Shown in pieces: positions 4,255 through 52,776 of a stretch of DNA of 64,000 nt. The stretch is from assembly GCA_004764695.1 (NCBI GenBank), contig SMSO01000008.1:595001-659000 (forward strand), given 5' to 3'. The translations under genes and the position numbers were made by a program. Source of the DNA: Schizochytrium sp. TIO01. Taxonomy: Eukaryota > Sar > Bigyra > Thraustochytrida > Thraustochytriidae. The notes under the pieces are model-generated. The model ran no database searches and had not been told where the DNA came from. It was given only the letters and a program-made list of their open reading frames with translations. The first letter of the stretch is position 1. The number at the start of each line of letters is the position of its first letter.

Positions 4255-4478
4255 AACAAACATACAAACATACAAACGGCTTCAACCAATCAAGCAAACA
4301 TACAAATAAACATACATATACATACAAACATTTCAATCAAACATACAAAGACATATAAACAGCTTCAATCAAACATACATATACATACATATACATACAT
4401 ATACATACAGACATACAAACAGCTTCAATGAATGAATGAATCAATCAATGAATCATACAATGAATCAATGAATCAATG

Positions 4479-4533
<55 letters not shown>

Positions 4534-4540
4534 GAATCAT
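4255..4540. repeat. compound ACAT / AATC / AATG microsatellite
   Basis: About 280 nt of interspersed ACAT-type units (4258-4420) followed by AATG/AATC units (4427-4540), the last third being a nearly pure AATC run. Blocks carrying the word CAGCTTCAAT recur between the repeats, so short segments seem to have been copied as well as single units. Confidence 0.9.
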
Positions 4541-4779
4541 ACAAATAATCAGCTCCAATCGGAAGCAAGGCGCCATCCCCCCTCACAAACCTTGTATGCA
4601 AACCATAAAAGCGAACTGCCGCTACCAGTGGCTACCGGCTGCTATCCATTAGGACCCTCCTACCCTCCGCTAGAGAGGCCCATCAGGTCTCCATTATTGC
4701 TGTACACAATCGTGGCGCGGCGCAGCCTCGCCGGGGCTCTGAGGCCTGCATGTGGCCGCACGCCAGCCGGCAGGCCTGG

Positions 4780-4860
4780 CAGGCAGGCAGGCAGGCAGGC
4801 AGGCAGGCCGGCCAGCGTCGACTCCTCAGCGTTCCGCCTCGCCTCGCCTCGCCTCGCCTC
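4780..4860. repeat. AGGC tetranucleotide and CGCCT pentanucleotide runs
   Basis: An AGGC run (about 4780-4808) is followed after a short unique spacer by five CGCCT units (about 4835-4860), inside a GC-rich island. The open frames across it (SerArg/GlyArg-type repeats) are by-products of the repeats. Confidence 0.85.
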
Positions 4861-28551: not shown

Positions 28552-31500
28552 ATGAAGCTCGACGTGGCAGACATCAACACTCAATGCTCAGACGATGTTC
28601 CTGACAAACAGGGTGAGGCCATCACAAGGCTGTGTAACTGCTCCACGGACTTGGCGTTCGTCGATGCAGTGCGGTCAATTTCGTCCTGGAATGCAATGGG
28701 CGAGCCTGGAGATATTCGTCACTGGGCGCCAGTCCTTAACCGTATGGACGCTCTATTATACAAGTGCATCACGGCGAACGAAAATGCAGTAGGGACACTA
28801 GTCCTCGATGAAAAGTCACTTCCAAAGGATGAAACCCCAGAAAATATTCAGGCACAGGAGGGACTTGGGCGTAGTGAGGAAGAGCGCAAGCGCCGGCCAG
28901 TGGACGACGCAGAGATGATCGTTGCAGCCATCTTCCGCTTCGCAGTTATTCTTCTGGAAAACTGTCACGCCAAGGTTGTCTTTAACCTTGCTGAATACGC
29001 CGAGGCTGTGCTCACTTCGCCTGATACCGAGTTATCTGATCTGGCCCTGCATGTTTTGGCTGCTCTCGTGGGTACCCCTCACCTCGATTGGCATCCTGAA
29101 GCAAATGACGAGGAACCAACTTCCTTGACGGGACGCACCGCTCTGGCTCGTAAGCTCATGTGCCTGGCCCAAGGATGGGGTAGCCAGGCTCAAGGCTTTG
29201 CCCTGAGGTCATGCGTAGTTGATACTGCGCAGGAGTCCGCCACAAACCTCCCTGCGGCTGGAGGAGCCTTGAACTTCGATTACTTCGCAGAGCAGCAGGA
29301 GGAGGATGACGAGAATGAAACTGGGGAGTCCAAAACCGACGAACAGAGTAGAAGTACTGCAGCCAAGGAAACAGAAAAGATATCCTTGACAGAAGCCAAC
29401 TCCACGACGACCATGATGGAGAATGATGTAAAGACCTCGGGAAACGATGATCCCTCTCCTGCAGTGAAGATCGATGGTTCTGAGGCCAACACAAACAAGA
29501 TCAACAACGCCATGGCGAAGCTTGAGGCGCACGTGGTTCGCATTCAACGCACGCCCGAGCAAGTCCAGGCAGCACAGACACCTAATGAATTGTACAATGC
29601 TATTCTCGAGGAGTGCCAAAATTTTCCAAAGCACCTGCGGTTTGCGTTGCTAGAGCGCACACGCCTAGCCCACTCTTTTGGTACTTTAGCAGGTCGGCGA
29701 CGCCGGGTTCTCCGAAGATTGCGAGCGCTGATCGTGCTGCAAAGAACTGCTTCACAAACCCTTGTTAACTACTACAAGCACGAACCTGAGCTCATGCAGG
29801 AAATCGCCATGCTTTTGAAGGACTCGACAACCAGTGTTTCTGAGGCTGGTCAGACTTCTCTGACCTCCAACAATACACTTCAACGATCGGGTTTTAACAA
29901 GGATCCAATGTCTGCGTCCCCAGGCTTGGTCCCGTTGAGTATTAAACTTGCTGCCGTCGGTGTCCTTGATGGCTTGCTTCGTGCTCGAGACCGTGCCGAA
30001 GGTGCTGAGGGTCCTGCAGCAAGGAATTCAAACGTTTTGCACGCTCTTGGCACCGTAAAGTCTGATGCTCAAGGCGTGCTGCTTACGTTGCTTCGATCCA
30101 CAGCAGCAAGTCTTGAGGCACACGCGATGCGGCTTATGAAGTCGTTGTCGTCCTCCAAGCAAGATGGGACATCCACGACTGATGAAAGCATTGGTCTGGC
30201 ATTTGTCTCTGCCATTGGAAACACGTCTCCTGCGACGCCTCCCAACGCGCCAATAGACTCTACAGACCTTGACCTTCCCGAAGACGACTTTGAGTGGATG
30301 AAATCTATCCTCGGATTGACCTGCTCAGTTGCAGAGTTTGATACCGGTGCATCGGCACTTACCGATGCAGGTCTTATTCACTCTGTACATGGAGCCCTAA
30401 TGACGGAACTTGCGTTGCGTCGCGAGCTGCGTACTAATTTAGACATATCTATGCCTCGTCGCACTCGCGTTCTGGCACTTGGAATTTATGTCCTCGTCAG
30501 CGCCATTTCAACAAGCACCGCGGCGGCTGGTTGGGCAAAAGACCTTGAACTCATTGATCTAACAATTGATCTTTTGCAAGAAACTCTGCAGCGCGGTCAG
30601 GCCATAACAGAGGCCAAGTTTCCCGGGTTTAGTAGCGCGTCTTCGACTAACAGAACAGATAGACTCATGGCCGATACCATGGAAACTGATGCAGGAATTG
30701 AGACGAAGACGGAGGTGAAACATACCATCGCACCGCAAGCTCTGGATCTCAGCGAGATGGCCATTGTACATGCGTTCATGTCTCTTTTGACTTTCATACA
30801 CGTTGTCGGAAGTAACGCGAGAAACAGTGCTGGAGGAATGAGCGATCGCTTACGAGATAAAGACTCCAAGCTGTCGAGTTGCCTTCGTCTTTTGTTTGAC
30901 AATTGTGGTGTTCTCGTGGGATCAACCTTTGATCGGGCTGCTACGCTTCTTTCAGAGACTCTCAATGCTGATCCCGTTAGTGCGCGTGTCGTAGCAGAGA
31001 GCGGCCTCGCCCGATCAGCGCTTTTGGTAATTTCAGAAGGTCGCTTGCCCCCCGTGGAGCCCTGTATTCGGGCTGTTCCAGCCATGCTGACTGGCCTTTG
31101 CCTGAGCGAGCAAGCGCTCGAGCTTGTGGATGGAGGTTTGCGTCCGAGTCCACTTGACGTTTTCATGGATGGGTTCTATGATCCGCGTTATGTGCGAGCC
31201 ATGTCGGAGAACACTGGCATGAGCGTTGGAGTAGGCCTCATGGACCTGGCGCAAAGCTTTCCGCGCCTTCGTCCTCGGGTTGTTGATGGCTGCGTGCGGC
31301 TCCTGAAGCGGATTCTTCATCCTCGGCCTAAAGAAATGCAAGCTTTCTCTGCTCTCATTGCAAACAGTATTGCCCCAAAGGTAGACTGTGGTGAGCCCAC
31401 GCTTCGTTCGTCCTTGTCATTCTCATCGAACGCAACAATGAGTTCATCCCAAAGCGAGACTGTCTCTTCCAGGGCTGAAGATGAGCTCCGCCACGCGTGC

Positions 31501-34500
31501 GTGCGGGACTCTGTTCAAATGATTTCATCTGTGCTCGAACATACTGACATGGCTAAGCTTTTCTTAGAGAAGGATGGACTCAAGCTTTTGCTTGATATGT
31601 ATCCGAAAACTCTCCCTCCTTCGCAACGCTTTCTCGTTCGCTCAGGAAGCGAGTATGGGGGCCAATCTTACATTTTCCTCTCAACGAACCTCAGTACAAT
31701 TGTGTATTCTCTTCTTGACAATATGCGGGGTCACATTATGAGTGTGCACCAGCTCATTCAACATATGGACGATGTGCTCGAGCGTGTTGTGAAGGCAAGA
31801 AAAGCTGCTGCAAAAGACCTCCCAGAAGGAAAGGGTCCATATTCTCTTCTTAAGTCAATCCCTGCAGATTTAACTGTAGACCAGGCGAAAAAATTAGCAG
31901 ACCAAGTCCAATCCGATGTGGGATCCACCTCGAAGGACACATTTGATGTTGCGCAACTTCGCCGCGTCTCCTCGAATATCAAAACCTTGACGCATCTTGA
32001 GTGGCTTGTGCTACTCTTGGCAAAATGCGTTTCTTCTGGATTGCCTACTGTTGCCTCGACGCGGATGCATCGGAGCTGGATGAGTGACCTAGTCACCCCC
32101 GAGCGCCTCCAGACGCTCAGAAAACTTTCTGTTACAGCGAGCCACCTGCGTCGCGAGGTTGCGCTCGAGTACGCAAACAATTATGACAAGGAGCGTAAAG
32201 CTGGAGAATCTAAAATGCTTCGAGATGTAGCACTAACGGAAATGGGACGTTTTACATCGACCGTCCAGCGTCTCTTGCATCAACTCTCAAGGCTCTGCTT
32301 TGTCCCACCAGCAAATAGACGTGGAACACGTGCCTCGCTTGCCACTGCCTCAGATCTTGCCAAAACAATGGCAACTGAATTGTCTGCCATTTTCATTGAC
32401 CACATCGAGTTTGCCAAGCTACCAGAGCATGGCCTGCAAGAGTCAAGCGATGCTTATCTTATGTACATGTGCGGTGTACTTAAACTTGTTACTAATTGCC
32501 TTGATGATACACGTAAGGGTAGTGAAGGGGCTAATTTAGTTCTTTTGTACATTTTGGACCCTGGTCCAGAAGGTCCACCAAGCAGAGCTAACAAGAATTC
32601 GTCCGCATCCGAAGTATCAAAAGTGAATACATTGGATTCTTTGCTGAATATCTCATTTAGCCTTCTCGACGAAGTTATGGAACGCGAAAGCACCCCTGCA
32701 TATATCCAGATCCTCCTTGAGGCCGTTTCGGACTTTTTGTGGCAACTTGTACGTGTGAATCGCACAGATTTTGTAACGTTGTCTTCGTCCATTGCCCGGT
32801 TCGGTCTTGAAGATGATTGGCGACCGATTCCTAACTTTCTTCTGGCACTTCACAAAAAATTGATTGTCTACTTACACCCACGTGTCAACAAACTGGAAAA
32901 GCTAGGTCCGGTAGCACTCTGCCATATCCTTCCTGTTCTTGCCAAGCTTGCTACTTTACCCCTTGAGGACCAAGACGTTTTGCCTGAACACTTTGCAACC
33001 AAATTTAGTGACGAGGATACTTCTCGAGGTGGTTTAGGGCGTTTAGGTGGCGGCCGTAATAGAGCTTCAGGTGCTGCAAATGAAGCAGATCAAGCTTTAG
33101 AGTTTGCCGCGAACCGTGCACGCCAGCGTGCACGAGCACAACGTGAGTTTGAGCCTGACATGGCTGTTGTTGCTAGAGTTGCTGAACTCGGATTTATTCC
33201 AGGTCATATCGTACGGGGCATGCGCCAGCTTCGCACCAACGATGCTGAGCACGTAACCGCTTGGGTTCTCGAAAACCCTTCACGAACTGAGGACGCTGAA
33301 TTCCAGATCCCTGCTCCTTCTAGTAGCTCTTCGAATGCTGAAGAAAGTGGGGCAAATGCGTCTGCAAGTGGCTCAGGATTTTCAGGGCATACTGATGCAC
33401 AAGATAATAATGAGGATGAGGAGGATGAGATAGCTCGTGCCATCCGCCTATCTATGGAGGAGTCTGGAGCTGTTGCTGGTGATGAAGATGATGATGAGGA
33501 CGAGGACGAGGACGATAAGGACATTGAGGAAGCTTCAATTGCTGATGAAGCTCAGCAAAAGGCTCTTGAGGAAGCTGCAGCTAAGGAAGAGGAAAACCGA
33601 AATGCACTACAAGTTGAAGACGACGCCTCGTTAAAAATGAGAGGTCTTGTTCGAAAGGCAGACGCTGTACGTGAAGAATTCTTCGCTTTCCGAAGATCAG
33701 TGTGCGAATCTTGTGTGGATATGCTTCGCAGTATTCCTGTGGACTCAAATGGTGCAGAAGCCACCTTGGCCAGCGCTGTAGCTGCTATGTTAATTAAGGT
33801 CGGGCACCAACCTGCACCTGAAGGTCCTCGCTGTCAAGGTCAAACTATGCAAAGGCTTAGTATTCTTGCTTTGGAAGCTCTCAAGCAGAATGACACCCCA
33901 AGAGCTAATGGTTTTATGCGTTGCATGGTGTTGGTTATGAGAGATTTGGTCGCGCAAGACACCCCAGCATCAGATGCACGAGCAGCAGGACAAAACCGCA
34001 ACGCTACGAAAGGTCTTTCTGGACCTGCTCGGAAATATCAACTTGCTTTCGCAAAGGAAGCCTTGCTCCGGGAAATGCTCGAGAGCCAGGCTTACGAAAG
34101 TGCGTTCGTCATTGTTGATCTGGCTTTGCGGCTTAACTGTTGTTCAGAAAACTTTCGGAGACTTTGCTTAGACCGCTGTAGTGAGATTCTCGCACAGTCT
34201 GGTCAAGATCTGACAGCTGATGGCCTGCATGCTGTCTTGCTTCTCTTATTTAGGGTTCTTGGTGATTATAAGTATGTAGAAGTATTCCTGGCTAAAGACA
34301 AGGCTTTGGAGGTCCTCATTTGTGGACTATCCTCCAAGCAGCGTTTTCCGGGCCACCGCACCTTAGTGAGCTTATTGATATCACGTATCCTAGAGCATCC
34401 CAGTACTCTGCGGGTGGCCATGGCATCAGTTCTTACATCAACCCTACGTGGAATTCAAATGAAACGTGCTCGTCGTCACCCAGGAGGTCGCACAAACGCG

Positions 34501-37500
34501 AGTCAGGTGCCAGTTCAACTACGTGAACTTATTAGCTTTGTTGAACCCATGCAACAGCGGAACCCGAAACTGTTCATGGAAGCCGCTGAGGCTGTACTGA
34601 AGGTGCGCAAAGCCGTTCTTTCTGGTCAAACTATGGTTGAACTACGCCCAGATGCTGGCAAAACCCTCTCTGCTCTCAACAAATCTGCATCTGATGAAGG
34701 CCCAGGTAGAGGTCGTGTAATGCAAGCTCTGTTAGATGCAATCTTTCAGGCCTTTTGTCAAGGCAATCAGTCGAAGCATCTCCTCGAGCTTGGCAGTTTG
34801 CTACAGCTTTTGCGCGATGTAATTTCTCTCCAGCCATGGACTGTTCGTGCAATCTTTGAGCGCCGTGTATCTGAGAAATCTCGTGATATTTTGGACTCGA
34901 TCTGGGGTTCAACGCTTCATCTCACACGTAAAATGCCTAAACATTCGGAGGGAAAATTCACGCTGGTAGACGTGTTGCTAGGTGGGGTCCTTTGTAGTGA
35001 GGGCCATGTAGATGGCGAGGAATTATACGAATCTACAAAAGCAGCTGTTTCTTTGTTGGCCTTGGCAGCAAATCGTACGACTGAAGAAGCCCGCCGTCGT
35101 TTAGTCCGAGCTCTCTCTTCTATGTTTGAGTCCACCGTCAAGGTCGAGGTTTCCTCCACTGAGGTTCAAAGGAATGCCCGTATGTTTGCTCTTCAAAACT
35201 GGGCCACTGTGGGACGGTTGATGTTAGATCGTTCTGCGGATGTTCGTACTGTAGGTTTGGAGATGCAGCGTCGCTCAGACATTTGCTGGGAAACAGCACG
35301 TTTGATGGACCATCATAACTACGTCAACACGCTTTTGCGACTACTCCCGCATGTAAACATGGAACACCCATTAGCTCCCTATGTGTCAGCAAACATTATG
35401 GCTCTAGCCTACACACTTTCTCGGAAATCTGTGCTTGGTCAAATTTACGCTCTAAATGCCAAAAAGGCATCCATATCAGGTACCCAAACGGAGAAAAGGA
35501 AAGGTCGAGACCGTGGACATTCGGTCTCCTCTGTTGGATACAACTCTGAAGGCGTTGCAGGTGACCTGCCAGAGACCCGTATGGATGCCGAGGCCATGTG
35601 GAGTGCGTTTGCAGCTCGTGATGGACCTTCTGCCCAACACGGTGGCCAAATGGGATCGATAAATGGTGGGGCTCCTCCCTCAGGCGGGGCAGCAAACGCT
35701 GATGCTAGTTATTTTGCTACTCTTGCCGGCGCGCCAATTCCAATTGAAGAGGAGGGCGAAGAAATTGAAGAGTTGGATGACAACATGCATATCGACCCAG
35801 ATAACATGATGGTTGTGAACCTTGATCCCAACGAAGATGCTGATGACGACGACGATGAGGATGATGATGAAGATGACGACGACGATGAAGAAGACGATGA
35901 GGATGAAGATGAAGATGAGCACCATGATGAGGACGAAGACGAAGAGATGGAAGATGGTCTTATTGCTCAAGTAGAAGAGGTTGACGAAGACGACGAGGAG
36001 GAAGAAGATGATGGAGAAGACGAACTGGATCGAATTGTCAGAGGTCATAATGTTGCAGGGCAGGGCGATGATATGGAGGACGACGAAGATGACGATGACG
36101 ATGACGATGATGAAGTGGATGACGAAGACGTTGATGACGAGACTGTAAACCGCATTTTCGGTCAACTTGCAGCTAATAATGATGTGGATGGTCTTGATGA
36201 TGAAGATGATGACGACGAAGTTGAAGGTGATATGACAGATGCCGTTATCAACGATGACATTGCTGTTGTCATGGGCCGCTTAATGGACCCATGGGCGAAT
36301 GTTTCTGGCGCCGGCGGAGTTCGTTTATCCGCCTCTGCTGTTGGCGAAGGATTCATGAGTGGCTTAGGCGACCGTGATGATGGTTTTCGTTTGCCTCGGG
36401 GAATGCGAAGCGGTCTTCACGATGTGTTGGGTCGCCAGCAAGAGGTGGCCATTAATATTGAAGAAGATATTGCCGGTGATTGGCGCCGCATAAACTTAGC
36501 CGTGCGTGGCCCTGAGAGTGGACTTGGCTCAAGTGTTGACCCTGCAGCGTCATTGAGACCTCGAATGGACTCGTTTGCTCTAGGCGATTTTCAAGGTGTA
36601 TCACGACGCCCATCTCGCCAACGTAATGTTCGTGGCTCTGCCTCGAATAATCATTCTAGTAACACATCCCCTACAAATTCCCAGCCAGGCGAAACAAATC
36701 CACTTTCTGAGACTTGGAACCCATCGAGCCTTGGATTGCCAGGTTTGCCAAACACTTCTGTATCTATTCTGGGTGACTACATGCGTGGTGTGAATCTTGC
36801 TGGTGTGAATGAGCTGCGCCAGTCAAATTCTAGTGACAGCAACGAATCCGCGGAGCCAAGTATGCCTCTACCTGACGTGCTTAGCCACCCTGTCCTTCGC
36901 TGCCATGTATCGCCACGTTTTGGAACAGATGTCCCTGGGAACGAAGCCCTCGTTCGTGGCGCTCCTGGAGGTTCTGCTGCGCGCTCTCAGCGTCGGTTTG
37001 GAGTTTTTGTTTCAGGGTTGGGTCGCATGGTTGAGCGTGCAGGTCGCGAGGCTTCAACAATTGAGATTCCTGGCCTTGCACCTGAGTCTAGGGACCAACT
37101 TGAACGTTGGTCAAATGGCAACTTTGCCTCTGATGCAGGAGCTGTACGTGATATTGTGACTCATCTGGAGGAGCGTGCAGAAGAAGAGAGTGAGGCGGAG
37201 TCGCAGCAACAACGCGAACAAGAGGCTACTGCCTCTGCTGCTGAGTCTAACGAAGGGGCAACAGCAGGCACCATTGAAGTCAGGCCGACGGAAGATTCTC
37301 ACGTAGCTGGAAATGCCGATGACGGGCTAGTATCGGCGAGCCGCTCTACTGGCGAAGTTGCAGCTTCTTCTGCCAATGTGCAGCAAGATTGTGACAATAA
37401 CAATAATAACAGGAACGCTGGGAACGTTGAACAAAGCCAAAGTGAAACAATGGAAGTGTCAGATGAAGGGTCGTCGGGGGCCAATGCTGAGAGCACTGCA

Positions 37501-39972: not shown

Positions 39973-40269
39973 ATCCCACGTTGCCGCTTCTGAAACATAG
40001 TGCGAATTACTTAGTTTTGTTGATTTTTGTTAAATCGAAAAAGAGATTTTAATATATAGAAAATATGTTTTATGTAGAATGTCCCTATGTCTCTAAAATA
40101 TTTAGATGTGCTCTGGTCAATCTCACAAGTGCCACCTGGTACTTTTTGCTTCTGACTACCTTTTCATAACGTTTTTCACAGGAGAAAAGACTATCGTATT
40201 TTAGAAAGCGTGTCCAAGTTGAAGCTTGAAGATAATATCTCTCTTTATATAATTTAATTCCCCTCCAAG

Positions 40270-43200
40270 TTAACCGTTCGTGGATGTCAGGATATAATCC
40301 TCCGACTTCACCAAAGTCGCATTTGTTGATGGAGCAACCTGTTGAGTACCAGCTGTTGGCGCCGTTGTATTAATACTAGCGTTAACACGAATGTTATTCA
40401 ACTTGGGAACGAGAATTAATGTAATAGTCATCATACAGGTCACAAGAATACCAATACTTCCAAAGGCATGCATTGAAGCATAACTGAGGTCTAAACTCAG
40501 AATTACTGCGAGAGTAAGCAAACTCATGACTGCGCCGTTGTAAACAGAAATGAAAATCCACTTTGCTTCGCTAAGTTCTGACTCGACGTGGCGAATCTGG
40601 TACGAAACGAAGCAACCATACAAAGTCATGATAGCAAGGAGTAGAATGAGCAAAAGACTCATGGTACCTGCATTGACAGAACATGTAGTGTATGGTACCA
40701 GATGGGCGACTCCGTCACTATCAGTAACAGATAGGTTATCCGTTGTTACATGAGGAGGGTCTACAGCCATCATTACTGCAATCATTATGCCAGTCGCAGC
40801 AACCAATGCAAAGAGACGTCGATAAAGTCTACTATTGGGTAGCTTGATTTTACGCAGTTTGGTATTGCGCACAAGAACACTGACTCGCCAGGTCTTAACA
40901 AACAAAGGTCCAAAAAGAAGAACATAGCCTAGAGCGGCGAGTGAAGGAAGGGTTGCACACTTTGCGTCCGTAAGCTTACCAAGCGCGACAATTGGTCCTG
41001 TAAGACCAACATATGCTCCAAACATCATTAGCAATAAGAATTCGCGCTGAGAAAGCCGAATGATCTTATGATTCCAGAATATAAGCAAAAACACTGTTGC
41101 TACTGTTGTAAAGAGAAATCCAGCTATAGCAAGGGGCAGTCCAACTCCAGAAGCCACAGCATAATCGCAATCAACTTCGAAGGGGTCAACGTCAGGGCAA
41201 TACTCCTTCGACTCATCAGAGTTTTGAACATACGTGACTAGACGGGTTGAACCTTCACAGTCAGACACTGTCTGATTATATTCTGTACTAAGAGTGCAAT
41301 CCATGGTATAATCAACTGGGACCTCGGTAGACAGCCCTGGAAAGTATGTGGTACTCGTGATGTCGAACTGATTGTTCTCATAGCGTCCGATAGAATTGTA
41401 CTGACTCCCATAGATGTTGCCAACCTCATAAACTGCAGAACTTCGATCACCATCACTGTCCATCTGAATAAGACCCGACGTTCCATAGTAGGACACTGCT
41501 CGAATAGCACTTCGGACCAAGGTCGGCTCAAGCCGTTGTGCTGGTGTAAGTGATCCCATTGCGCGTAGAGCTACTTGAATTGCGTCATAGTAAAAACCAT
41601 TCCAACGTGTTTTAGCAATAGTGATTGCTGCATCGCGATCACCATTTGAAGCATTCAGAAGTGTTGCACCGATGTTTGCGTATTTACCTACTACATCGTC
41701 AAAGTGCTCGTCAATACACGCATGCCATTCTGCATAAGTTGTACCATTTGGAGCCATAGCAGGAACAAGCCCAATAAAACCTTCCAAGAGGGTGTCGAGG
41801 TCTTCCTTTTCATCATCGCTCAGACCCCATACATCATCATCAAGCACCATCATTGTTGCTTCAGTGGAGAGCCAACCCCAACCTTCCTCTAACATACCTG
41901 TGCTATTGGCCTCGACAAGAATAGCACGAGGAGACTTCACAGCGAGAAGAACAATTCGAATTCCAGTTGCCCGAATCTTTCGCAAAGCTTCAGAGATTTG
42001 AGATTCGGTATAGCCGTCTTGGAGAGTGTAACTCGTAACTGCAATGCCTAGCTCAGTAGCTCGATCTCCAAACGCTGTGATAATTCCATCAAAGTAAGTA
42101 TTTGGTGAAAGAGAGAGGGTAGCAACATGAGTCCAATTATTGGATAAAGAATAATTGGCTAGGAGAGAACCTTGATACGAGTCTGAGGCAATGACTCGTG
42201 AGAAATAAGAGTATGTCGTAGCATCACTTAGCGATGGAGAGGTGGCTGTAGTACCAATCAAGTTTTGTTGATACGCTGTTCCAATCAAAGCGGCACCACT
42301 TGTGGGTGTACTTCCTGCCGAAGGCGCTACAGCAAGGTGCATTCCAGATTTACGCATGCAATTGCCTGCGCTGATACCACCTGACATCGTTGAACCAGTG
42401 CCTAGCCAAATAAGATTCAAACTTGTAGAATTGGAAATTACTGTTCCATTGTTGACTATATTATCAAGAGCACACATAGCTGACATGTCAATACCCACAC
42501 TACCTTCAAAGTCTCGTAAGATACCTAGGTAAATTGAGTCGGCTGTGGTTTCGTAAATATCTTCATCAATGAGATCCTCAACGCAAATTCTATCCTGAAC
42601 ATAATCCGTACAGTCATCGCATACTGAGTACATGTTGCAGTCCTCCTCTGTTGTAGAAAGTTCTGGGCAGTAGCGTGCAGACACATTTGAGGCGAAAGAA
42701 TAACTAACATTCCGAACAGAATCGACGCAAGTCGTTGCTGTTGTAATATAATCATCATCGACATTACAAGTCATTACGTAATCACTCGGCACAGAAGACA
42801 TATTCCCAGGGAATTTTAATTCTGCCTCGTTATTTAACACAGTCGTTCCGTTGCTTACGAAAAATCTGCCAACATCAACCAAAACTCCATTTTGTACATT
42901 TCGAATAGCAAAAGAAGATCGAGTTCTATGACCATTCTCATCAATGCTAACATCTCCAGTTACTCCTGTGAAAGCTGTATTAAGAATTGCTTGTCGAATA
43001 ACGCTAGGATCTGAGGGATCAGACGAGGCATCTAAAGCTCTTATCACAAGCTGTACAGAGTCGTAGAAGTAACCATTGTATGAATCCAGAGCAAGACTCA
43101 GACCTGCAGAATAGGTTTGTTCAGTCGTGTTGCTTGTTAGGGACGTGCCAATATTTGAAAAATTGCCTGATGTTGCATTGAAATTGCTTTCAACACAAGT

Positions 43201-44145
43201 CTGCCAACGTTCGTATGTAGTGCCCCCAACATCAAGGCTTGGAATGAGAGCAATGAAGCCCTGAAGAAGCGTTTTGTATTGTTGAACTTCCTCTGTAGAC
43301 ATCACGCTTGCCCCGAAGGATGAGAGTGGTTTCTCCAAGGTACGCCCGGTTGCAATCCAGCCCCAGCCCTCAGATAGCATTCCAAGATCACTGGCAACCT
43401 GTAAAAGCTCTGCCAAGTCTGTCAAAAGTGGTAGAATAATTCGATAGCCAGACGCATCGACCGCCTCCAAAACTGATTCAATACTTTGTGTCGAAGCAGA
43501 TGTAGGAAGAGAAAATTGAGATAGTTCAATGCCAAGCTGCATCGATTGTACAGTAAACTCACTAAGCGCAATGTCCATCTCTGGATCGCCGGAAGAAACA
43601 ATAATAGCAACTTTTAACCAGTCCATATTAAAGCAAAATTGTGCAAGCGATGCTATTTCTACTTCCATAGCACCATAAATTTGCGTGACATATTCAGCAC
43701 TGTACTCATGTTCTGACATGGCCACCATATTTTTTTCGTAAATGTTTCCAACAAGGGCTGCTCCAGTCGTTTCTGCAGTAGAGAACAGTCCTAGTGCAGC
43801 TTCGATACCAGCCTTCTCCATGCATAATGCAGCCCTTGTACCGCCTTCAGAGGTGCTCTGGGTGTCTAACCAAACTGGAGAAACTTGAGTAAAACCACTC
43901 AGGAATCCATCCTCAAGTGCATGCTCTAGAGAGCACAATACAGCAAAATCAGGACTCGGGTTCAACGCAAGATTGCGCATAACACCAAAGTACAGGTTTG
44001 TTGCATTTGTTACATATTGATCATCCACGATAGTATCCTCCGCGCAAATGCGGCTGGATACATATGAATTGTAATCTCCACGAACAGCTTGTGAGCTTGC
44101 AGCAAAACACAGAAGAACAATGCCCAGCGCTGTTTGCGAGCGCAT
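40270..44145 (-). CDS. class C (GABA-B-like) seven-helix receptor with two tandem Venus-flytrap modules
   Basis: Single-exon frame. An upstream in-frame ATG exists at 44202, but the one at 44145 begins a clean signal peptide (MRSQTALGIVLLCFAASSQA), giving 1,291 residues. Two homologous extracellular modules follow, at about 25-480 and 515-960, each opening with RICAEDxI / RICVEDLI. They share anchors such as GMLSEGWGWIATG versus GMLEEGWGWLSTE, GTTYERWQTCVE versus GTTYAEWHACID, and YNGYFYDSVQLVIRAL versus WNGFYYDAIQVALRAM. Both are rich in Asn-x-Ser/Thr sites. Seven hydrophobic helices span about 990-1255 and include ESELSEAKWIFISVYNGAV, a segment typical of GABA-B-like receptors. A short cytosolic tail follows. 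The family binds small ligands in the flytrap and signals through G proteins at the plasma membrane; the ligand is unknown. The gene lies between the two halves of the divided E3 ligase. Confidence 0.92.
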   Translation of the reverse strand: MRSQTALGIVLLCFAASSQAVRGDYNSYVSSRICAEDTIVDDQYVTNATNLYFGVMRNLALNPSPDFAVLCSLEHALEDGFLSGFTQVSPVWLDTQSTSEGGTRAALCMEKAGIEAALGLFSTAETTGAALVGNIYEKNMVAMSEHEYSAEYVTQIYGAMEVEIASLAQFCFNMDWLKVAIIVSSGDPEMDIALSEFTVQSMQLGIELSQFSLPTSASTQSIESVLEAVDASGYRIILPLLTDLAELLQVASDLGMLSEGWGWIATGRTLEKPLSSFGASVMSTEEVQQYKTLLQGFIALIPSLDVGGTTYERWQTCVESNFNATSGNFSNIGTSLTSNTTEQTYSAGLSLALDSYNGYFYDSVQLVIRALDASSDPSDPSVIRQAILNTAFTGVTGDVSIDENGHRTRSSFAIRNVQNGVLVDVGRFFVSNGTTVLNNEAELKFPGNMSSVPSDYVMTCNVDDDYITTATTCVDSVRNVSYSFASNVSARYCPELSTTEEDCNMYSVCDDCTDYVQDRICVEDLIDEDIYETTADSIYLGILRDFEGSVGIDMSAMCALDNIVNNGTVISNSTSLNLIWLGTGSTMSGGISAGNCMRKSGMHLAVAPSAGSTPTSGAALIGTAYQQNLIGTTATSPSLSDATTYSYFSRVIASDSYQGSLLANYSLSNNWTHVATLSLSPNTYFDGIITAFGDRATELGIAVTSYTLQDGYTESQISEALRKIRATGIRIVLLAVKSPRAILVEANSTGMLEEGWGWLSTEATMMVLDDDVWGLSDDEKEDLDTLLEGFIGLVPAMAPNGTTYAEWHACIDEHFDDVVGKYANIGATLLNASNGDRDAAITIAKTRWNGFYYDAIQVALRAMGSLTPAQRLEPTLVRSAIRAVSYYGTSGLIQMDSDGDRSSAVYEVGNIYGSQYNSIGRYENNQFDITSTTYFPGLSTEVPVDYTMDCTLSTEYNQTVSDCEGSTRLVTYVQNSDESKEYCPDVDPFEVDCDYAVASGVGLPLAIAGFLFTTVATVFLLIFWNHKIIRLSQREFLLLMMFGAYVGLTGPIVALGKLTDAKCATLPSLAALGYVLLFGPLFVKTWRVSVLVRNTKLRKIKLPNSRLYRRLFALVAATGIMIAVMMAVDPPHVTTDNLSVTDSDGVAHLVPYTTCSVNAGTMSLLLILLLAIMTLYGCFVSYQIRHVESELSEAKWIFISVYNGAVMSLLTLAVILSLDLSYASMHAFGSIGILVTCMMTITLILVPKLNNIRVNASINTTAPTAGTQQVAPSTNATLVKSEDYILTSTNG

Positions 44146-44202
44146 TATATTCAATTTAAAGTGGAATTCAGAGATCACCTCCAGTAGATAGGCCGTCCAC
44201 AC

Positions 44203-47200
44203 GGGCCTAAACAGAGGTGTTTCTAGTTTGCTTTTTGCCCTGGTTGTTTATTTCATGGAATAACATCCTCGAATGGTATTAAAATATAAAATAAACTCTG
44301 CAAAGAGGACTTTATTATGAGAATAAATTGATATATTAAATTATACAGAGTAAATAATCATGTAAAGTGAAACACGAGCTTTCTGCGATAACATATTTTT
44401 ACCGTACTTTTTAATGCCATAACAAAATCACCAAGACCGTTCACCATCTTTTTGAAGGCAATATGTTTCGCTGCAATGACCTTAAGAATGGAACGGATAG
44501 GGCATCCGCATTTCGTGTTCCTATTTATACATAAACGTAAGATATCCTAGTTTTCACAATAGCTGACTTCAGCTAGACATAAATGCCAAACAGCCTGGAT
44601 AGTAGTGCTTGCTAGTCGAAGAGTTTGCCGACTTGTAGTCAAGACTAAAATTAACCTTGTTGGAAGACCTAATCGCATTCTCTGCCCCTTCACCTTGCCT
44701 CCCTTCAAGCACCCTTTTTATCTAGTCTTCCTTACACTAATCCAATGATCCGGCGTGGTTGTGCCTCCCCTCCCACCATTACGAGATAGCAGCGCTGCGC
44801 ATCTACTTGCACACTTCGGATGAAGAGCACATTTGCATATTCTTGAGAAAAAGCACTTGTGTTTTTCCAAAGTTCGCCACCATGTGTTCTCCCTGGGCTG
44901 AGCCTAAGGGCAGTCCTCTGCCTGGTACCTTCAAAGTGCCACCACCATTCTTTTGCGCAAGACACGGGGCGCTTACCTTGAGCTCAACTCGCAGGCCTTA
45001 GAGTCCTCCGCTCCAAGATTGTATGTAGAGTCTTGAGAACGCCTGAATCGGGTCCGCCAGAAGCTAGCTGTGTGCAAGTTTGACCTACTCTCAGCTTCCA
45101 CACCCATGTACTAGTCTTGCGTGGGCCAACCAAGGATTACAGCGTCCACTTGGTCTGGTCTTCTCTTTGGAGATAGCTCTTGCCTCAATTGTGCTTGCGG
45201 CACAACCATAAACTCCTATGAGCTCTCCGCCCTGCCACCCAAGCTGATCCAGAGTATTATCTCCACCCTGTAGTTCGCCAGCTGCTCAGCATTTCCAGGA
45301 TTCTTCTTTCTCGCTCTCCTACATTCTTCTCTCTTTTCCCCATTTCCCTCCCATAAGCTCCTATAAAGTCGAGAATCTTTCAAATGTATCCGTTACAATG
45401 GTAGAAATTTGCGCACGAAACTGCATTCCTCGTAAGCCAACCCTAAGCGAGTTAAAGGGGCGAAGACCCAGCGTTGGAATCTTTGGCAGTAAACCTGGTT
45501 CAGAGTAGGGAGGTGCGCGATGATCGAAATTCTTAAGTCGGGACTCGTGAGCAAAAAGCATCAGTCAGCCAGTAAACACGGGGGGGCAGCGATGGTCGGG
45601 TTTTGGCCAGTCGCGAAGTGCCGATGGACTTCTTCGCCAGGACCTGTCGTTGCCCTTTCGTCCGCCGGCAGAGAGTCATGGCAGCCTCGCCAAATAAGCA
45701 GCGCTACCTACACCTTCGGTGTTCTTTCGCTGGCGCTTTGGCTTTCGGGCGGAGCAGAAATGCCAATGTTCCGAGAATGTTAGATACCCAAGGCTTCTAA
45801 CGACTCTTTCCCTGTTATCCGTCTGCCGTATGGCATAAAAACAAAAACTTGCGCCAACTCTTGACTGTTATAAACTCCTAAATGGACCTCGCGTGAGGCA
45901 TGAGAGCTTTGCAAATGGGACACAAATCCAGGCTCTCTCAAGAACTTGCTCAACACTCGTTTGCGCTGTTTGTGTGCCTCTTGTAAAGCGCACGCCGTTA
46001 CATTTCGCCATTAGGCGTCTCCATTCTCATTCTTCTCCTATCGTGCTTATCTATCATTCACCCTCCAGATCTTCGAGATCGGATGGAGCGATGCCTGCAA
46101 GTCCAGACTCAATAGCGTGCAACGGCCCATGAAATAAGTAATGTTGCGCGGAGCGCAGTCTTGAGCTGCCAACTATACTAAGACGCAAGTTTATCGAGGA
46201 GAGAGACAGTCTCCTCATCATCATCACTTCTCCTCAGAACTAAATGATTTTATTACTTTATGCTCAGACCTCGACAGCGTGTCACTTGTGTGCAAGTACT
46301 TCATGAACCCTGAACCGTCCGCCTACCGCCACTTTCAAGATTTCCTATAGCTTTTCTCACTTACATTGCTTCATCTTGCCTGCAGCCGGATCATCAACAA
46401 CTGCTTTCAACGGTACCTTGTGACGGGTTCCCTCAGGACCTGCAACCTCCCTCTTTATAGTCTGACTTCATTATTGAATATAAGAGGGTATTAGTGTTTT
46501 TTGTTTATTTTTCATTTTTTTTAATTGAAAAAAAAAAGAAAAAAAAGCAGACCATTTGTGGGAGTTATGATAGGAAGTAGGTACCTACTACTATATTGTA
46601 TTTTTCCTTCTTTACGAATTAAATGAAGAAGACCTACCTAGTTACTCAGCTTTAAATATTGTCAAGAATTGTAAAAGGGAGACACGAAACGATGGTAGTC
46701 ATTCGTTATTTTTAGCTCGAGGTACCAAAAGTAACAGTTGGGGGCGCAAAACTTGTAAGTTGTAGGGCTCGCACTAATTGTACAGTTTTTGAAGCAAGTG
46801 GCAGTGTAAGGAGCTTTATTTGATGAAGATACGGTAAGTTTTCGGGAGCACATTCACAAAGCGTACGCGTAGTTTTCATCACGCCAGGCCCGGTTGAAAT
46901 GTGGACATTGTTGTGGTCTGTATAGACAGTAGCTTTGAGTTGTGAGGTTCTGAGCTAAATGTCTGTTAACAACTAAGTTTGTATGATGAAAACTTCAGAG
47001 GCGTTGAAATATGTACTTGGCGGTCCTGTTCCCAGTTTTCTTTTTGTCCTCGAGCACGTTTTTACGTTCCATTGTTGATGCGTAAACATGGCAATAGAAT
47101 TGCTTTACAAGGGATATAACAGAAAGTCGTGCTTTCTTTCTGTTTTGCCCTTCTCAACTGCGTTCATTTTGTACTTCAAGAAATCAGCATTTGTTCCCGT

Positions 47201-48247
47201 TTGATAACAACCAGAAGTTAGACTTGGAAAAGAAGGACTTGTATTTGCAAATTTGCATTTGGCGGAAAGTTTGAGCGATCGACGACTCCGAATCTACCCC
47301 CAAAGGCAAGGTTTTCCAATCTGAAGGGAACCCTCTAAAACTCAAGTATTATTACCTGCAGAAGGAACACAATCCTGCCCTTTCTTCGTTTTCATTCACT
47401 ATGCAGTTAACCAAATCCCCAACTTGATAAGGATCGCATGTATTTGGTAAAGAGTAACGTTTTCTTTAATTTCCCAAAATGATTACGTCCACACTTGTAT
47501 TGATAGAACTGTTGAGATGATCTCAGCAGGTAGCTGGGCATATGAGCAAGTTAGCCCACCAGTATCTTTTCTAGACAGCAAAGAATTTTCCTGTTTATTT
47601 TACTTCTGCCTAACTACGAAGTAACGATCAACTCGATTTCATACTGTAATCATTATTTCATTGTATTTGATCAATTCTGAAAAAGGCCCCGTCTCGCTCC
47701 ATTACTATGATTATTATTATTATAGAATATTATTATTAACATCTTACCTTTATGTTGTAGTCTTGAGAGTGAATATACCTATGCACCAAGTATGGTAGCA
47801 TGTCAATAATAAAGTATTCATGTTACAGTGCAAAAGGAATAGTGCTCAGAATTCGTTTCAATTTCTGCTAAGTTTGGCATTGACAACCAACTCTATCAAA
47901 CACAGGCTTGCAATGAATGTGACTTTAGAAACTCAATTCAATCTTTTTCTCGAAATTTGGAGGTATCATAAGCCAGCAGGCATCTTCGTTCTCCAACAAG
48001 ATTGAAAATGTACGATTCTTGAGACTCTTGCGCCGTGAGTTCTAAAGCTCTCCACCATCTCAATACTGATGGGACCTGTCATGGATAATAAACATTTTTC
48101 CACTAGTAAGCATGGCATTTGCCCAATTAGCAACAGTCAGTAATTACAGACATCTTGTACTCTGGTACAAAGTACCTGAACTTCATCGGGCAGGGAGGTA
48201 GGTTGTTAAGAGAATTTGAACATTTTTTTTTCTTTTACAAACGGAGA
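44203..48247. other. intergenic region (4 kb)
   Basis: Lies upstream of the receptor gene and downstream of the HECT gene, both on the minus strand. It has mixed composition: pyrimidine-rich around 44.6-46.4 kb, then AT-rich with an A/T homopolymer block at about 46495-46545 and an ATT microsatellite at about 47705-47740. No gene is supported; open frames are short and without known domains. Confidence 0.6.
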
Positions 48248-49621
48248 CTAGCCGAACCCATAACCTTCAGTACATTCGTGAATAGCATACATCAGCTTTT
48301 CTTTGAGAGCTGCTTCAGTATTGTATGACGGCAAATCAAGTTGATTGAAGCATGAGTGCGATTGAGGAAGAGCATCATCACTTCCATATGCTTTATGGAT
48401 TGTAAAACGTTGTACACCGCGCATGCCGATAAGGTTTTTGAAACCATCGAGTGGAACTTTGGAGGTTCCTGTGACAAACATGAGAAAACGTGCGTGATCT
48501 TCAGATGGCAGAGCCTCGAGAGTTTTCCAGAACCAACGGATTTGCTGGCTTGCTGCGGTATATCCTACATACTCCGTGTTTGCTTTGAGATCGTCGAGAT
48601 CGATTTCAGGTACACCAGCAATGAGTAGCTCGAGTTCATTTTCGTCGAAGATGGAGATCAGTTCAGCTGGAACAAGCTCATGGAAACCCTCAAGAAAGGC
48701 ATCGAGCTGAGCCCGAATACCATTAGTCATGCGATAGTGGGTCACCAAACGAATATAATCGCGCTTGTTTTCTTCTGTCACAGGGACATTAGCTCCTCCT
48801 GGGAAGAGCTCTTTCGTGCGAACAGACCCAAAGACGTCAATGTCAGCAGAAAAGGTAAGATCGAAGCCGATCTCCTCAATGTTCATTTGTGTAAGCTCCA
48901 TAAGATTGCGGTAGTATTCTGGGTCGAGGCTTTGCATATCAGATGGTGTCACCTTGAGACCTAGAATATGCTTATAGAACGACCTCGTAAAGTGCGCGTC
49001 TAGTAAATGTCCATCAGCAACAGCTTTACCTACAATCCTGCCCACGAACTTGAAGTATTCCAAATGTCTGTCCACAGCAATAGACGATCTTGGATCCGGT
49101 TGGAATGCGCTGCTATCTGCCGACGGCTTAAACAGTCCATAATCCGGTTTGAACATCTCTCTCGCCAGGATCTGAAACCATTCACGCGTAGGTCCTCCAG
49201 CGTCGATGCCTTCTTCGCCATCAAATTTCACCGACAGTCTTCCTCGCAGCTCCTGTGCAGTATGATACTGCAAATACAAAAAGGAGTCCTCGAATACGTG
49301 CGAGCGACGCACAGTCAAGTTCACAGTTCCTGTGCGCACCGTTCGTCTCAGCTTGCGCATTTGAGCCACGAAGTATTGACGTTTGTTATCAAAATCAAGT
49401 ACAGAGCGACAATTTGGGTGCTTCAGCAAGCACGAGAATGAGTCGTCCAGGAGGGCTGGCGACTGGCTCACCAGCGAGTTCAACACATTTCCGTGGGCGT
49501 GTACGAATTTAAGCAAGGTTGCCTCACGCTTGTCGTGGGCACTGACCTCACCGCTCTTGGCACCACTGCCCTCGCTGCTCTTGCCGCCGGCATGGAGCTC
49601 GTCTAGAGCATCCAAATCCAT
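48248..49621 (-). CDS. HUWE1/TOM1/UPL1-type HECT ubiquitin ligase catalytic domain as a separate gene
   Basis: Frame of 457 codons from ATG 49621. After about 37 linker residues comes the N-terminal extension of HUWE1-type HECT domains (LLKFVHAHGNVLNSL; VLDFDNKRQYF), then the N-lobe (RRSHVFEDSFLYL, FDGEEGIDAGGPTREWF, YFKFVGRIVGKAV, FTRSFYKHILG) and C-lobe (FVTGTSKVPLDGF, CFNQLDLPSY). The catalytic Cys is residue 424 (codon 48352-48350), 34 residues from the C-terminus, and the terminal EGYGFG matches the family. The sequence resembles HUWE1/UPL1 rather than NEDD4-type HECTs, so it is the expected partner of the HECT-less scaffold at 28552-39972. The frame is open without ATG for 38 codons upstream of 49621 (stop at 49738-49736) with coding-like content, so the true N-terminus could be longer through splicing. 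Whether the protein works alone or joins the scaffold is unknown. Confidence 0.92.
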   Translation of the reverse strand: MDLDALDELHAGGKSSEGSGAKSGEVSAHDKREATLLKFVHAHGNVLNSLVSQSPALLDDSFSCLLKHPNCRSVLDFDNKRQYFVAQMRKLRRTVRTGTVNLTVRRSHVFEDSFLYLQYHTAQELRGRLSVKFDGEEGIDAGGPTREWFQILAREMFKPDYGLFKPSADSSAFQPDPRSSIAVDRHLEYFKFVGRIVGKAVADGHLLDAHFTRSFYKHILGLKVTPSDMQSLDPEYYRNLMELTQMNIEEIGFDLTFSADIDVFGSVRTKELFPGGANVPVTEENKRDYIRLVTHYRMTNGIRAQLDAFLEGFHELVPAELISIFDENELELLIAGVPEIDLDDLKANTEYVGYTAASQQIRWFWKTLEALPSEDHARFLMFVTGTSKVPLDGFKNLIGMRGVQRFTIHKAYGSDDALPQSHSCFNQLDLPSYNTEAALKEKLMYAIHECTEGYGFG

Positions 49622-51126
49622 ACCTGAGATTGATCCTGGAGTGCAACGCGAACGAGAGTCTGTGCGACTCGAGACGACCGTGTCACCGGTCGTTTGAAAA
49701 GCGTGAACTCGCTGTTGGGTGCAGACTCGCCTGCGTTAACTTTATCGTAGTGCGATGGGAAGTCTGATTCGGGATTGATGAAGATCAAAGATTTCTGTTG
49801 GCTTTGTTCCTTTGTCTTCTCTTCATCTCAGTTATTGTTATTATCTAGAGAGTTACTGTTTCAAGTAGACAATTATAAGTAAAGTATTCATGGTATAAGT
49901 AGGAAATAGAGGAATACATCCCTTGTGGTGGATAGGTTATACAGTGGGAAAGAAACGGGAATTTATTGCTTTCCCGGCTTGAAGACTCTTCAAAGAGTTA
50001 GCTCGAGCTAAATATCGGATCGGTTGCTCGAGGCCAGATGCCTGGTTTATAGGTGTTCTTTTGTTTTTAACAAAGAGGAAAATAGAGCTAAGCCTGGGCA
50101 TTTGTGTCTCAATTGTTTTAATGGTGCCACAGAATCGTATGTAATTAAAGATTACTTGAGAGCGCTTCTTCTGCCAAATATAACTATCCTCCCTCAAAAA
50201 CAGGTTTAAAGAGATGGAGAAGTAAGTCATTGACTTGAAAGCAAGAGCAGCGAAGAAAATCACAGACACGAGAGACGTTTATTCAAGAGACGATTGATTG
50301 GTATGTCAGCGCTCATTTTTGTCCTCGCTCACTTGTTTACAACCAATCTTCCAGTGACTCGCAAAAAAAAATTAAAAAATTAAAGCAGTTTGCTTCCCGT
50401 TTGTGTACAGTTATAATGCGATACATAGTTTTGCTAAGCCTACATGAATTTGGGCGCATTGCAAACCTGTTGTGCGTCTGCAATTTCTTTTTAAGTATGC
50501 AGAATACTTAGTATAGATGGATACTCACCAGCAAAACTTTTCATAGTTGCTCATGATGGTATTGGTGATCTAAAATAAGTGCGGACAGTCACAATATCAT
50601 TTGCAAAGCATTGTGACTTTTTAAAAGGCGTACAAATAATTACAATCACGTGATTGTGCATCTATGCGCCCTCCTAATCTTGAACCCAGCATACCTTAGC
50701 TTAATCTTAGTGCTTTGATTACGTACATCTATCAATCAAGCATAGATTTCACTGTTGAAAGGTTCTTCGAAACCTTAGTCCAACTGTGTAGAACAAACGT
50801 CATGTAAAAACTTGCGGCAACTCCAATCTCGATGGCAATAAAACGAAGAGCATAAAATTGATTTCATTGTTTTCTTCTGACTACATTAAAGCTAGACGAG
50901 CTAATCACAGCGTACTCTCCCGGTTGATTTGGATATGGTTTGTCTAATTAGATAGGGAAAATATATAGGGATAAGATTTTCGCCGAGCTACTCTGAACAA
51001 GCTGATCTTACAAGACAAGTTCTCCAAAAACTAAGGCAATTGTGAAGAAAAAATACTTTTAAGATATATTTGAATACAATAGAAAAATACTTAAAGCTTG
51101 GGCTTATAAGGGAAACTTTTAGGAAG
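49622..51126. other. intergenic region
   Basis: 5' flank of the HECT gene and 3' flank of the LRR-kinase gene. AT-rich, with no supported gene. The first about 115 nt next to the HECT ATG are in frame with it and may be coding (see findings). Confidence 0.55.
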
Positions 51127-52776
51127 CTACTCTAGCTCAAATTCGGTCTTCACAAGTCCTAGAGTTAGTAACGGCTCAAGCTTAGCTCTCAGAACACTTG
51201 GAAGACTTCTGCCTTGTATATTTTCACTCCAGTACATGCGCAGACGCTCCGTACGAATCACTCGCCACGCCTCATGCACCTGCTCTGGAAAGTCAGGATA
51301 ATATAAGTCATCACTAAGTTTTCTGTTGCAGTTTCTTACGTGAGCGTAGCAAGCTTCCTTGTCCTTGGAGCTGTATTCAAGACACCAAGCACAAAATCGA
51401 TGCCTGCAGCTATCATTGCCACAGATCACAGCACAACATCCATCAAATTCGTCAAAGCGAGCATTGCAATTTGGACAGCTCGTAATCAAGAGTTTTTCCT
51501 CTATGTGCTGCAAATGCATCTTTGCTTCTAAGCTCAGCCCACCTTCTTCAAGAACCACTGCCATGCGCTTTTTAATCTCCTCCTCGGCCCGAACTACAGC
51601 TTCGCTTTCCGCTTTCATCTGTGCGATCCGCAAAAGGTGTCTCAGAGCCCTTGGCGCAAGGCGCGCAATATCTTGGCCCATGATTCTTCCATCGCATCTA
51701 GCCTCCACGCATTCCATCGTTCCATCGGCACCCACAGTCACGGAGGCTTCTGCGTCCGTAGCAGCTTCTACTGAGCGTGCGATACAGTCCCGGCAAAGGA
51801 AATGTCCTCTCTCGCAGCACGTGCCCTCGGAAAGCGGGATGTCATCCAAGCATACAGGACATCTTACTAAAGGATTCGCGACAGCCCCGAATGTCTCAAG
51901 CGCTTCAACGGCACATGGACGATGCTCAGGATTTATCGCTTTGAGAGAGCTTATGAGTGTCTGCATTGCAGATGTTCGCTCACAGGGATACAGCTCCTCC
52001 AGGACTACACCCACAGAGTACATGTCCATCGCAGTTTCGAACTTGTCTACTGGTCCTGTCTGCAACTCAGGAGCAAGGTACCGTGGCGTCGCTTGAAGAG
52101 ATGTGTATGTTGCTGTGGAATTTGCTATTTTCATGCCATCGAAATCACCAAGCAGCGGGGTCTCGATATTCGCGAGGAAGATGTTCTCTGGCTTGATGTC
52201 GCAGTGTACGATGTTCAAAGCATGCAGGTCAGCCACCCCAATCAGTAAGCCCGAGGCAAGTCGATTACGCGTAACTTTATCTGCGTTGGGGTGCTTTTTA
52301 ATCCACTCCGCCAAGTTGCCTTGCTCGTAGAAAGGCATCAAAATGCATCCGTGTGGTACCCCATGTAAGATACTAACGAAGGCACCGATAATGCGGATTA
52401 CATGTTGCGAAGCTACCTTGCCTAGATTCGCAACTTGCGTGTAGAAAGCCCTAATTTGGTTCGAATGCTCGAGTTGAAACTGCTTCAGAACGAGGCTTCT
52501 GCCGGTGCTGTCTAATACCTTCTGTACCGTCTTGCCACCCCTTGAAGCCAGAAGCTTTCCAATAGGCTGGAAATCTGAAATTTCCACGTTCGCTAGCCAG
52601 AGATCAGAGCAAGCCACCTCAAGGACACCGTCTGCACTTACATGTACCTTTTCGAGCCATGCTTGGTTTTTTAGTAGTTCTGGGTAATGCTCCTGCGCGT
52701 GTTGCAGAGTTTCGGCAAGTTTATGACGAAATGCTTTGCTCAGTTCGATAGGACTGCCTTTGGAGAGTATAAGCTT
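51127..52776 (-). CDS. kinase-like plus RING/IBR terminal exon of the LRR gene
   Basis: Open frame of 549 codons with no usable ATG at its 5' end (a GTG at 52617 is the first start-like codon), so it must be spliced to upstream sequence. The kinase-like domain has a Lys in the VAIK position (LVLKQF), NIVHCDIKPENIFL (HCD in place of HRD), GDFDGMKI (DFD in place of DFG) and an intact APE motif (YLAPEL). The catalytic Asp residues remain, so activity is possible. It is followed by a RING-like CPVC...CCERGHFLCRDC, a helical spacer, and an IBR/RING2-like CPNCNARFDEFDGCCAVIC...FCAWC. RBR ligases pass ubiquitin through a RING2 cysteine; GCC in the second module is the candidate. Kinase and RBR in one chain is uncommon in well-studied organisms. 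Confidence 0.85.
   Translation of the reverse strand, partial: KLILSKGSPIELSKAFRHKLAETLQHAQEHYPELLKNQAWLEKVHVSADGVLEVACSDLWLANVEISDFQPIGKLLASRGGKTVQKVLDSTGRSLVLKQFQLEHSNQIRAFYTQVANLGKVASQHVIRIIGAFVSILHGVPHGCILMPFYEQGNLAEWIKKHPNADKVTRNRLASGLLIGVADLHALNIVHCDIKPENIFLANIETPLLGDFDGMKIANSTATYTSLQATPRYLAPELQTGPVDKFETAMDMYSVGVVLEELYPCERTSAMQTLISSLKAINPEHRPCAVEALETFGAVANPLVRCPVCLDDIPLSEGTCCERGHFLCRDCIARSVEAATDAEASVTVGADGTMECVEARCDGRIMGQDIARLAPRALRHLLRIAQMKAESEAVVRAEEEIKKRMAVVLEEGGLSLEAKMHLQHIEEKLLITSCPNCNARFDEFDGCCAVICGNDSCRHRFCAWCLEYSSKDKEACYAHVRNCNRKLSDDLYYPDFPEQVHEAWRVIRTERLRMYWSENIQGRSLPSVLRAKLEPLLTLGLVKTEFELE

Follow-up and report, generated by a model that had tools for sequence, protein, structure and literature searches.

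A HUWE1/UPL1-type ubiquitin ligase gene in Schizochytrium sp. TIO01 divided into a scaffold gene and a stand-alone HECT gene on opposite strands

Can the catalytic part of a giant HECT ubiquitin ligase be encoded apart from its scaffold, and do the two parts still work together? The question is raised by a 64,000-nucleotide stretch of the genome of Schizochytrium sp. TIO01 (contig SMSO01000008.1, positions 595,001 to 659,000; hereafter the window), in which a HUWE1/UPL1-type scaffold and a HUWE1-type HECT lie in two separate genes. The literature treats animal HUWE1, fungal TOM1 and plant subfamily V as a single ancient gene whose one protein product carries DUF908, DUF913, in some members UBA, DUF4414 and HECT in that order (PMC5913265; PMC3712016), and a survey of the ubiquitin system describes HECT layouts as varying little, the catalytic part needing the C-terminus of the chain (PMC4327156). 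The explanation that we favour, and hold to be probable, is that a HUWE1/UPL1-type gene has been split into two opposite-strand genes and that the HECT still works in trans, with the last helices of the scaffold predicted to hold it and activate it.

The scaffold gene is one open frame, and an in-frame stop lies four codons away from its ATG. Its parts are as follows, with residues numbered along the scaffold.

28552..39972, + strand: scaffold gene of HUWE1/UPL1 type without HECT, a single uninterrupted frame of 3,806 residues
28918..30102, + strand: DUF908, residues 123-517 (Pfam E-value 4.8e-22, above cut-off)
30760..31602, + strand: DUF913, residues 737-1017 (Pfam E-value 1.1e-24, above cut-off)
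37801..37884, + strand: UBM-like ubiquitin-binding region, residues 3084-3111 (17.6 bits against a Pfam cut-off of 23.3)
39751..39843, + strand: terminal helices, counterpart of the end of the HUWE1 activation segment, residues 3734-3764 (predicted structure and alignment)
39844..39972, + strand: scaffold tail and stop, counterpart of the flexible linker, unconserved, residues 3765-3806

An earlier note, made from the letters of the window, had described this frame as carrying every HUWE1/UPL1 feature and then stopping before the HECT. The DUF908, the DUF913 and the stop before the HECT bear this out, but "every" is slightly too strong, because the UBM-like region and the UIM score under their Pfam cut-offs and UBA gave no Pfam match at E <=0.1. 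The UBM (DUF4414) stretch, residues 3084-3184, is identical in alignment at 48 of 100 positions to P0130, a relative with both parts in one protein that is described below. UBA occurs in human, plant and some fungal members and is not universal, and 134 of 204 full-length fungal TOM1 sequences are reported to read DUF908-DUF913-DUF4414-HECT, that is, without UBA (PMC5913265). Pfam found no HECT in the scaffold and no WWE in either protein. An armadillo-like solenoid is present toward the scaffold C-terminus, as expected of the HUWE1/UPL1/TOM1 family.

The HECT gene lies on the other strand, and its parts, numbered along the HECT protein, are listed next.

48248..49621, - strand: HECT gene, encoding a stand-alone HUWE1-type HECT protein of 457 residues
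49322..49534, - strand: pointer/thumb (dimerization) region at the N-terminus of the HECT protein, residues 30-100, aligned to HUWE1 3954 onward
48254..49171, - strand: HECT domain, residues 151-456 (Pfam E-value 6.2e-99)
48350..48352, - strand: codon of the catalytic cysteine, C424 (Cys in 44 of 44 aligned rows)
48260..48262, - strand: codon of the residue four from the C-terminus, Tyr here

The profile match and the invariant C424 agree with the earlier reading of this 457-residue frame as a complete HECT with its catalytic Cys. By sequence, the closest solved structures are HUWE1 chains and then Tom1, with 5lp8 matched at an E-value of 1.7e-134 over residues 36-456. The pointer/thumb region is identical to P0130 at 40 of 71 positions, and within it H43, L50 and F62 align with HUWE1 H3962, I3969 and F3982, residues reported as important for the HUWE1 dimer (PMC5308896).

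The position of the cut was compared with the switch described for human HUWE1, in which an activation segment (3843-3895) is followed by a low-complexity linker (3896-3950) and then, from 3951, by the pointer/thumb dimerization region and the HECT (PMC5308896). In the same account, a construct of residues 3951-4374 is dimeric and less active, and addition of 3843-3895 renders it monomeric and active (PMC5308896). The model of the scaffold end (residues 3225-3806; mean predicted local distance difference test score, pLDDT, 71.8) aligns to HUWE1 7jq9 up to residue 3893 and to Tom1 9dnt up to 2826, and the HECT protein model (mean pLDDT 86.1) aligns from HUWE1 3953 and Tom1 2847; the gene boundary therefore falls within the human linker. 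Judged by position and conservation, counterparts of the activation segment and of the dimerization region are both present, one on either side of the linker. In fused relatives the linker, counted from the end of the AFFLVNG counterpart to the LLKFV counterpart, spans 48 residues in P0130, against about 10 for P0131 and P0134; in the latter two, the distance from the terminal scaffold helix to the pointer helix is thus far shorter than in human HUWE1.

Conservation at the end of the scaffold lies in the terminal helices and not in the tail. Its predicted helices begin at residues 3734 and 3747, in blocks with pLDDT of 83 and 93; the second is modelled to 3783, but its later part has a pLDDT of 65-73. 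Residues 3736-3764 are identical to P0130 at 17 of 25 positions and to P0131 at 19 of 25, and P0130 and P0131 match each other at 19 of 25. Conservation was also scanned over the final 766 residues of the scaffold in 742 segments of 25 residues, each given its average identity to P0130 and P0131, with a gap counting as a mismatch. Among the segments listed, eight share the top score (0.72; median 0.34), three of them starting at 3734, 3736 and 3737, and segments starting in the scaffold tail score 0-0.04. At 32 aligned positions the tail shares 3 residues with P0130, and its pLDDT is below 50 from residue 3788; the low-complexity stretch before the terminal helices matches P0130 at 12 of 56. 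Alignment A4 misplaced the terminal helices and was left unused; alignment A2 smeared the scaffold tail across HECT columns, so nothing was drawn from the tail model.

The two frames are separated by 8.3 kb, as the earlier note had it, and 9.65 kb lie between the scaffold stop and the HECT start. Because the genes are on opposite strands, ordinary cis-splicing between them is ruled out. The stretch between them reads as follows.

39973..48247, no strand: inter-frame stretch, containing a receptor gene at 40270-44145 (- strand) and no second HECT match

The receptor gene between the ligase halves encodes a class C-type seven-transmembrane receptor (7tm_3) with two ANF_receptor stretches. In three frames, the sequence behind the scaffold stop (39961-40300, + strand) showed no HECT remnant, and that ahead of the HECT start (49601-50300, - strand) no trace of scaffold. 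A short dispersed repeat of about 70-87 bases lies at 50729-50815, about 1.1 kb upstream of the HECT gene, with copies of 85-89% identity on contigs C35 and C32. The base composition and start context of both genes were uninformative.

Copy number was assessed in the 64.06-Mb assembly of 37 contigs, in which the window lies on a contig of 1.14 Mb. DUF908 and DUF913 each have one genomic match, both at the scaffold, and HECT has 19 matches genome-wide. With the window HECT as query, the gene itself scored 1047 bits and the next-best genomic HECT 304 bits at 41% identity; the six-frame genome search with the HECT protein gave no further match within the window. The DNA of either gene has a full-length match in the assembly only to itself. 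The single DUF908, DUF913 and HUWE1-type HECT thus leave no intact second copy found, and the second complete HUWE1-type gene that the earlier note had envisaged elsewhere, looked for in the genome with these three domains, did not appear.

Counterparts of each half were found in other assemblies. P0003, from another assembly source (tag lgn, presumably the Logan assemblies), is this very scaffold, encoded on a contig of 12,383 bases, with 3804 of 3806 residues matching and an identical end residue. In the thraustochytrid Hondaea fermentalgiana, a deposited protein of 444 residues named "E3 ubiquitin-protein ligase UPL1" (P0010, on a contig of 204,854 bases) is 91% identical to the window HECT. 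Like the window HECT it is a stand-alone HUWE1-type HECT without a scaffold part, starts at the same position, opens with MDL and carries the same Tyr near its C-terminus; its head before the conserved part has 18 residues compared with 29 here, 11 fewer. The scaffold end in P0003 and the stand-alone HECT in Hondaea indicate that the split is no quirk of one assembly.

Relatives were searched with the scaffold end joined to the HECT as query, which returned 1,159 proteins at an E-value of 0.001 of 7,981 scored; the HECT inside this query favours HECT-bearing proteins in the results. Among the best 120 of the 1,159, P0003 alone lacks a HECT model, and every DUF913 row except P0003 also has HECT; among the matches listed, the oomycete rows with both domains are fused. 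The best match after P0003 is P0130 (source tag jgi), in which one frame of 3,946 residues holds both parts. It is the nearest fused relative of both halves (68% identity in the HECT; 47% over 98% of the joined query region) and differs in that a single open frame encodes scaffold and HECT, AFFIVNG and DKRES being separated by 42 residues. The fused P0131 has 2,800 residues, is without a DUF908 or DUF913 model and aligns to the scaffold from residue 738 on. The continuous gene that the earlier note had suggested seeking in relatives was thus found in P0130, P0131 and P0134, and the HECT side of the same division in Hondaea.

Trees of the two halves agree on their neighbours. In the HECT tree (31 rows), the window protein and that of Hondaea pair at 100/100, inside a five-member clade (98/100) with the fused P0130, P0131 and P0134; the scaffold tree (16 rows) places the same three fused proteins as neighbours (100/97), P0134 on a long branch. 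Since both halves nest among fused relatives, their ancestor was a single fused gene and the split is a derived state. On the evidence of these sequences, both genes belong by ancestry to the HUWE1/UPL1 line and the division is a derived gene fission. That one HUWE1-type gene was divided, as first proposed in the earlier note, is accordingly supported by the sequences, the single copy, the Hondaea HECT and the placement among fused relatives. Neither half shows an acceleration in rate compared with its fused kin: the HECT path from the inner fork is 0.29, against 0.24 for P0130 and 0.42 for P0131, and from the outer fork 0.37, against 0.62 for P0134, and the scaffold path is 0.75, compared with 0.85, 1.32 and 3.14 in the fused neighbours.

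Brown algae, Tribonema and an ochrophyte have short HECT-only proteins, which were considered as signs of an older split and rejected, as they group apart from the window and Hondaea proteins in the HECT tree. The HECT-only search admitted proteins of about 251-800 residues and thereby favoured fragments and partial gene models. The brown-alga HECT-only rows open with a PGARFR stretch, which the longer rows P0022 and P0023 carry inside the linker. One further HECT of the TIO01 genome (L011) falls among HUWE1 rows but on a branch of 3.41, so its placement means little.

The division probably arose once, on the branch leading to Schizochytrium sp. TIO01 and Hondaea, perhaps by inversion of 39.98-49.65 kb, which would have moved the HECT to the other strand along with the neighbouring receptor gene. 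No pair of inverted or direct repeats able to drive such an inversion was found at both ends of the inter-gene stretch. By analogy with the human construct 3951-4374 (PMC5308896), the HECT protein alone would form a self-inhibited dimer. The C-terminal helices of the scaffold, again by analogy with HUWE1, would bind the pointer/thumb region, separate the dimer into monomers and bring the active HECT to the scaffold ring, and an internal switch would thereby have been turned into a contact between proteins. From the conservation of the two halves we infer that they likely bind each other, with the HECT acting in trans together with the scaffold. It is possible, and we propose it tentatively, that the pair forms a two-subunit giant HECT ligase in which the activation switch is the contact between the 3,806-residue scaffold and an exchangeable catalytic subunit, and in which output is set by the ratio of the two gene products.

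It is unlikely, if far from negligible, that fission was followed by a parting of functions, the HECT protein becoming a free ligase with substrates of its own and the scaffold a binder of ubiquitin or substrates, or a non-catalytic regulator. Opposite strands permit independent expression, and the isolated HUWE1 HECT domain is described as highly active in vitro (PMC5308896); however, accelerated change in one or both halves is not seen, the terminal helices are still among the most conserved stretches of the scaffold, and the HECT protein has kept its pointer/thumb region though the human HECT domain is active without it. A single polypeptide could also persist if trans-splicing rejoined the two RNAs, as the opposite strands would require, and the CAG/GTATGG context at the HECT start can be read as a splice site. 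This is quite improbable, given that each gene is one open frame, that the scaffold's own in-frame stop is kept in P0003 and that in Hondaea, too, the HECT starts at this position with an ATG of its own.

Still less probable is an artefact of assembly or annotation, in which an inverted stretch separates what is one gene in the cell. Inverting 39.98-49.65 kb does set the HECT on the + strand directly behind the scaffold, and none of the other assemblies compared spans both genes together. The flip nevertheless restores no single open frame, because the scaffold has its own stop and an unrelated tail and the HECT its own start and head; moreover, P0003 has the same stop, Hondaea has the same stand-alone HECT on its contig of 204,854 bases, and the assembly offers neither end repeats to mislead an assembler nor an alternative genomic copy. 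The least probable of these accounts is decay, with the HUWE1 pathway being lost and both genes relics of a broken gene. Rearrangement of a dispensable giant gene would leave such a split, but the 3,806 and 457 codons are free of stops and frameshifts, no rate increase is seen, and the HECT retains its catalytic Cys and its 91% identity to that of Hondaea.

It should be noted that several observations weigh against the preferred reading, in which the HECT is bound and activated by the scaffold. The residues aligned with the HUWE1 dimer contacts vary across the family (H in 28 of 44 rows, F at the position of F62 in 24 of 44), so their presence in the HECT protein says little. The residue four from the end is Tyr in the HECT protein and in Hondaea and Phe in the other 42 of the 44 aligned rows; these two alone have Tyr there among 247 proteins compared, and in a count of the tail pattern over 245 proteins, 218 fit it (216 Phe, 2 Tyr), the 27 with other or truncated tails being left uncounted. 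In HUWE1 this Phe is reported to be required for transfer and to be buried in the self-inhibited dimer (PMC5308896), and with Tyr in place of a Phe on which catalysis by HECT ligases depends, HECT activity may be altered. The terminal helices are identical at only 7 of 25 positions to P0134, the third fused relative, and at 11 of 29 to P0138 of the oomycete Pythium, and they could be conserved for the folding of the scaffold itself. HUWE1 is reported to show an internal likeness of its activation segment to its thumb; no such likeness could be detected here, as 244 of 1000 shuffles reached the score. Searches covering proteins of about 2,093-6,660 and 1,415-4,500 residues yielded no Hondaea scaffold, and the scaffold and HECT pair is therefore seen whole in one species only; the Hondaea scaffold may be a shorter gene model, missing from the database, or absent.

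Compared with known ligases, the locus shares with human HUWE1 (5lp8; full length 7jq9) the DUF908, the DUF913, the armadillo-like C-terminal solenoid, the counterpart of the activation segment, the pointer/thumb region and the HECT, and when the scaffold and the HECT protein are laid end to end the order of domains is the same. It differs from human HUWE1 in its two opposite-strand genes, in the unrelated tail and unrelated head that stand in place of the linker, and in proteins that lack a Pfam match to WWE or UBA. Plant UPL1/UPL2 and fungal TOM1 belong to the same family and have the same domain order, but each is one polypeptide. The HECT found here is of HUWE1 type with the catalytic Cys, as in that family; a single-polypeptide ligase is not what is encoded, the two frames lying on opposite strands with one genomic copy each. 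A literature search for a HUWE1 that is split, separate or lacks its HECT, and for HECT in stramenopiles or thraustochytrids, returned no two-gene HUWE1, most subscription papers lying outside the search. In a 2026 review of full-length HECT structures, HUWE1 and Tom1 are single chains, and the role of scaffold opening is called unresolved (PMC13196369). The rule that a HECT sits at the C-terminus is preserved at this locus, while the rest of the giant ligase has been cut away at a regulatory hinge. If the parts work together, the proposed HUWE1 switch becomes testable with two separable proteins of natural sequence, and the detachable catalytic subunit known from modular RING ligases would extend to HECT ligases; if they work apart, a HECT-less HUWE1 scaffold reveals what the scaffold does by itself.

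Other genes and repeats were noted in the window. Near the HECT gene, a frame at 51130-52776 (- strand) encodes a protein kinase domain followed by a cysteine-rich stretch and is another possible E3; this stretch, which Pfam did not find, we presume from its motif to resemble RING/IBR. Two related proteins of no Pfam family are encoded at 53355-54215 and 62575-63279 (both - strand), with 36% identity over 157 columns (E-value 1e-23). A duplication of 635 bases at 96% identity links about 55044-55678 with 55998-56632, with further pieces up to 58300, accompanied by a TCAG array of about 28 copies at 56604-56714. Toward the other end of the window, at 10741-13286 (+ strand), a ZZ zinc-finger frame overlaps a bromodomain frame on the same strand, and the two are probably one gene with an intron or a frame change.

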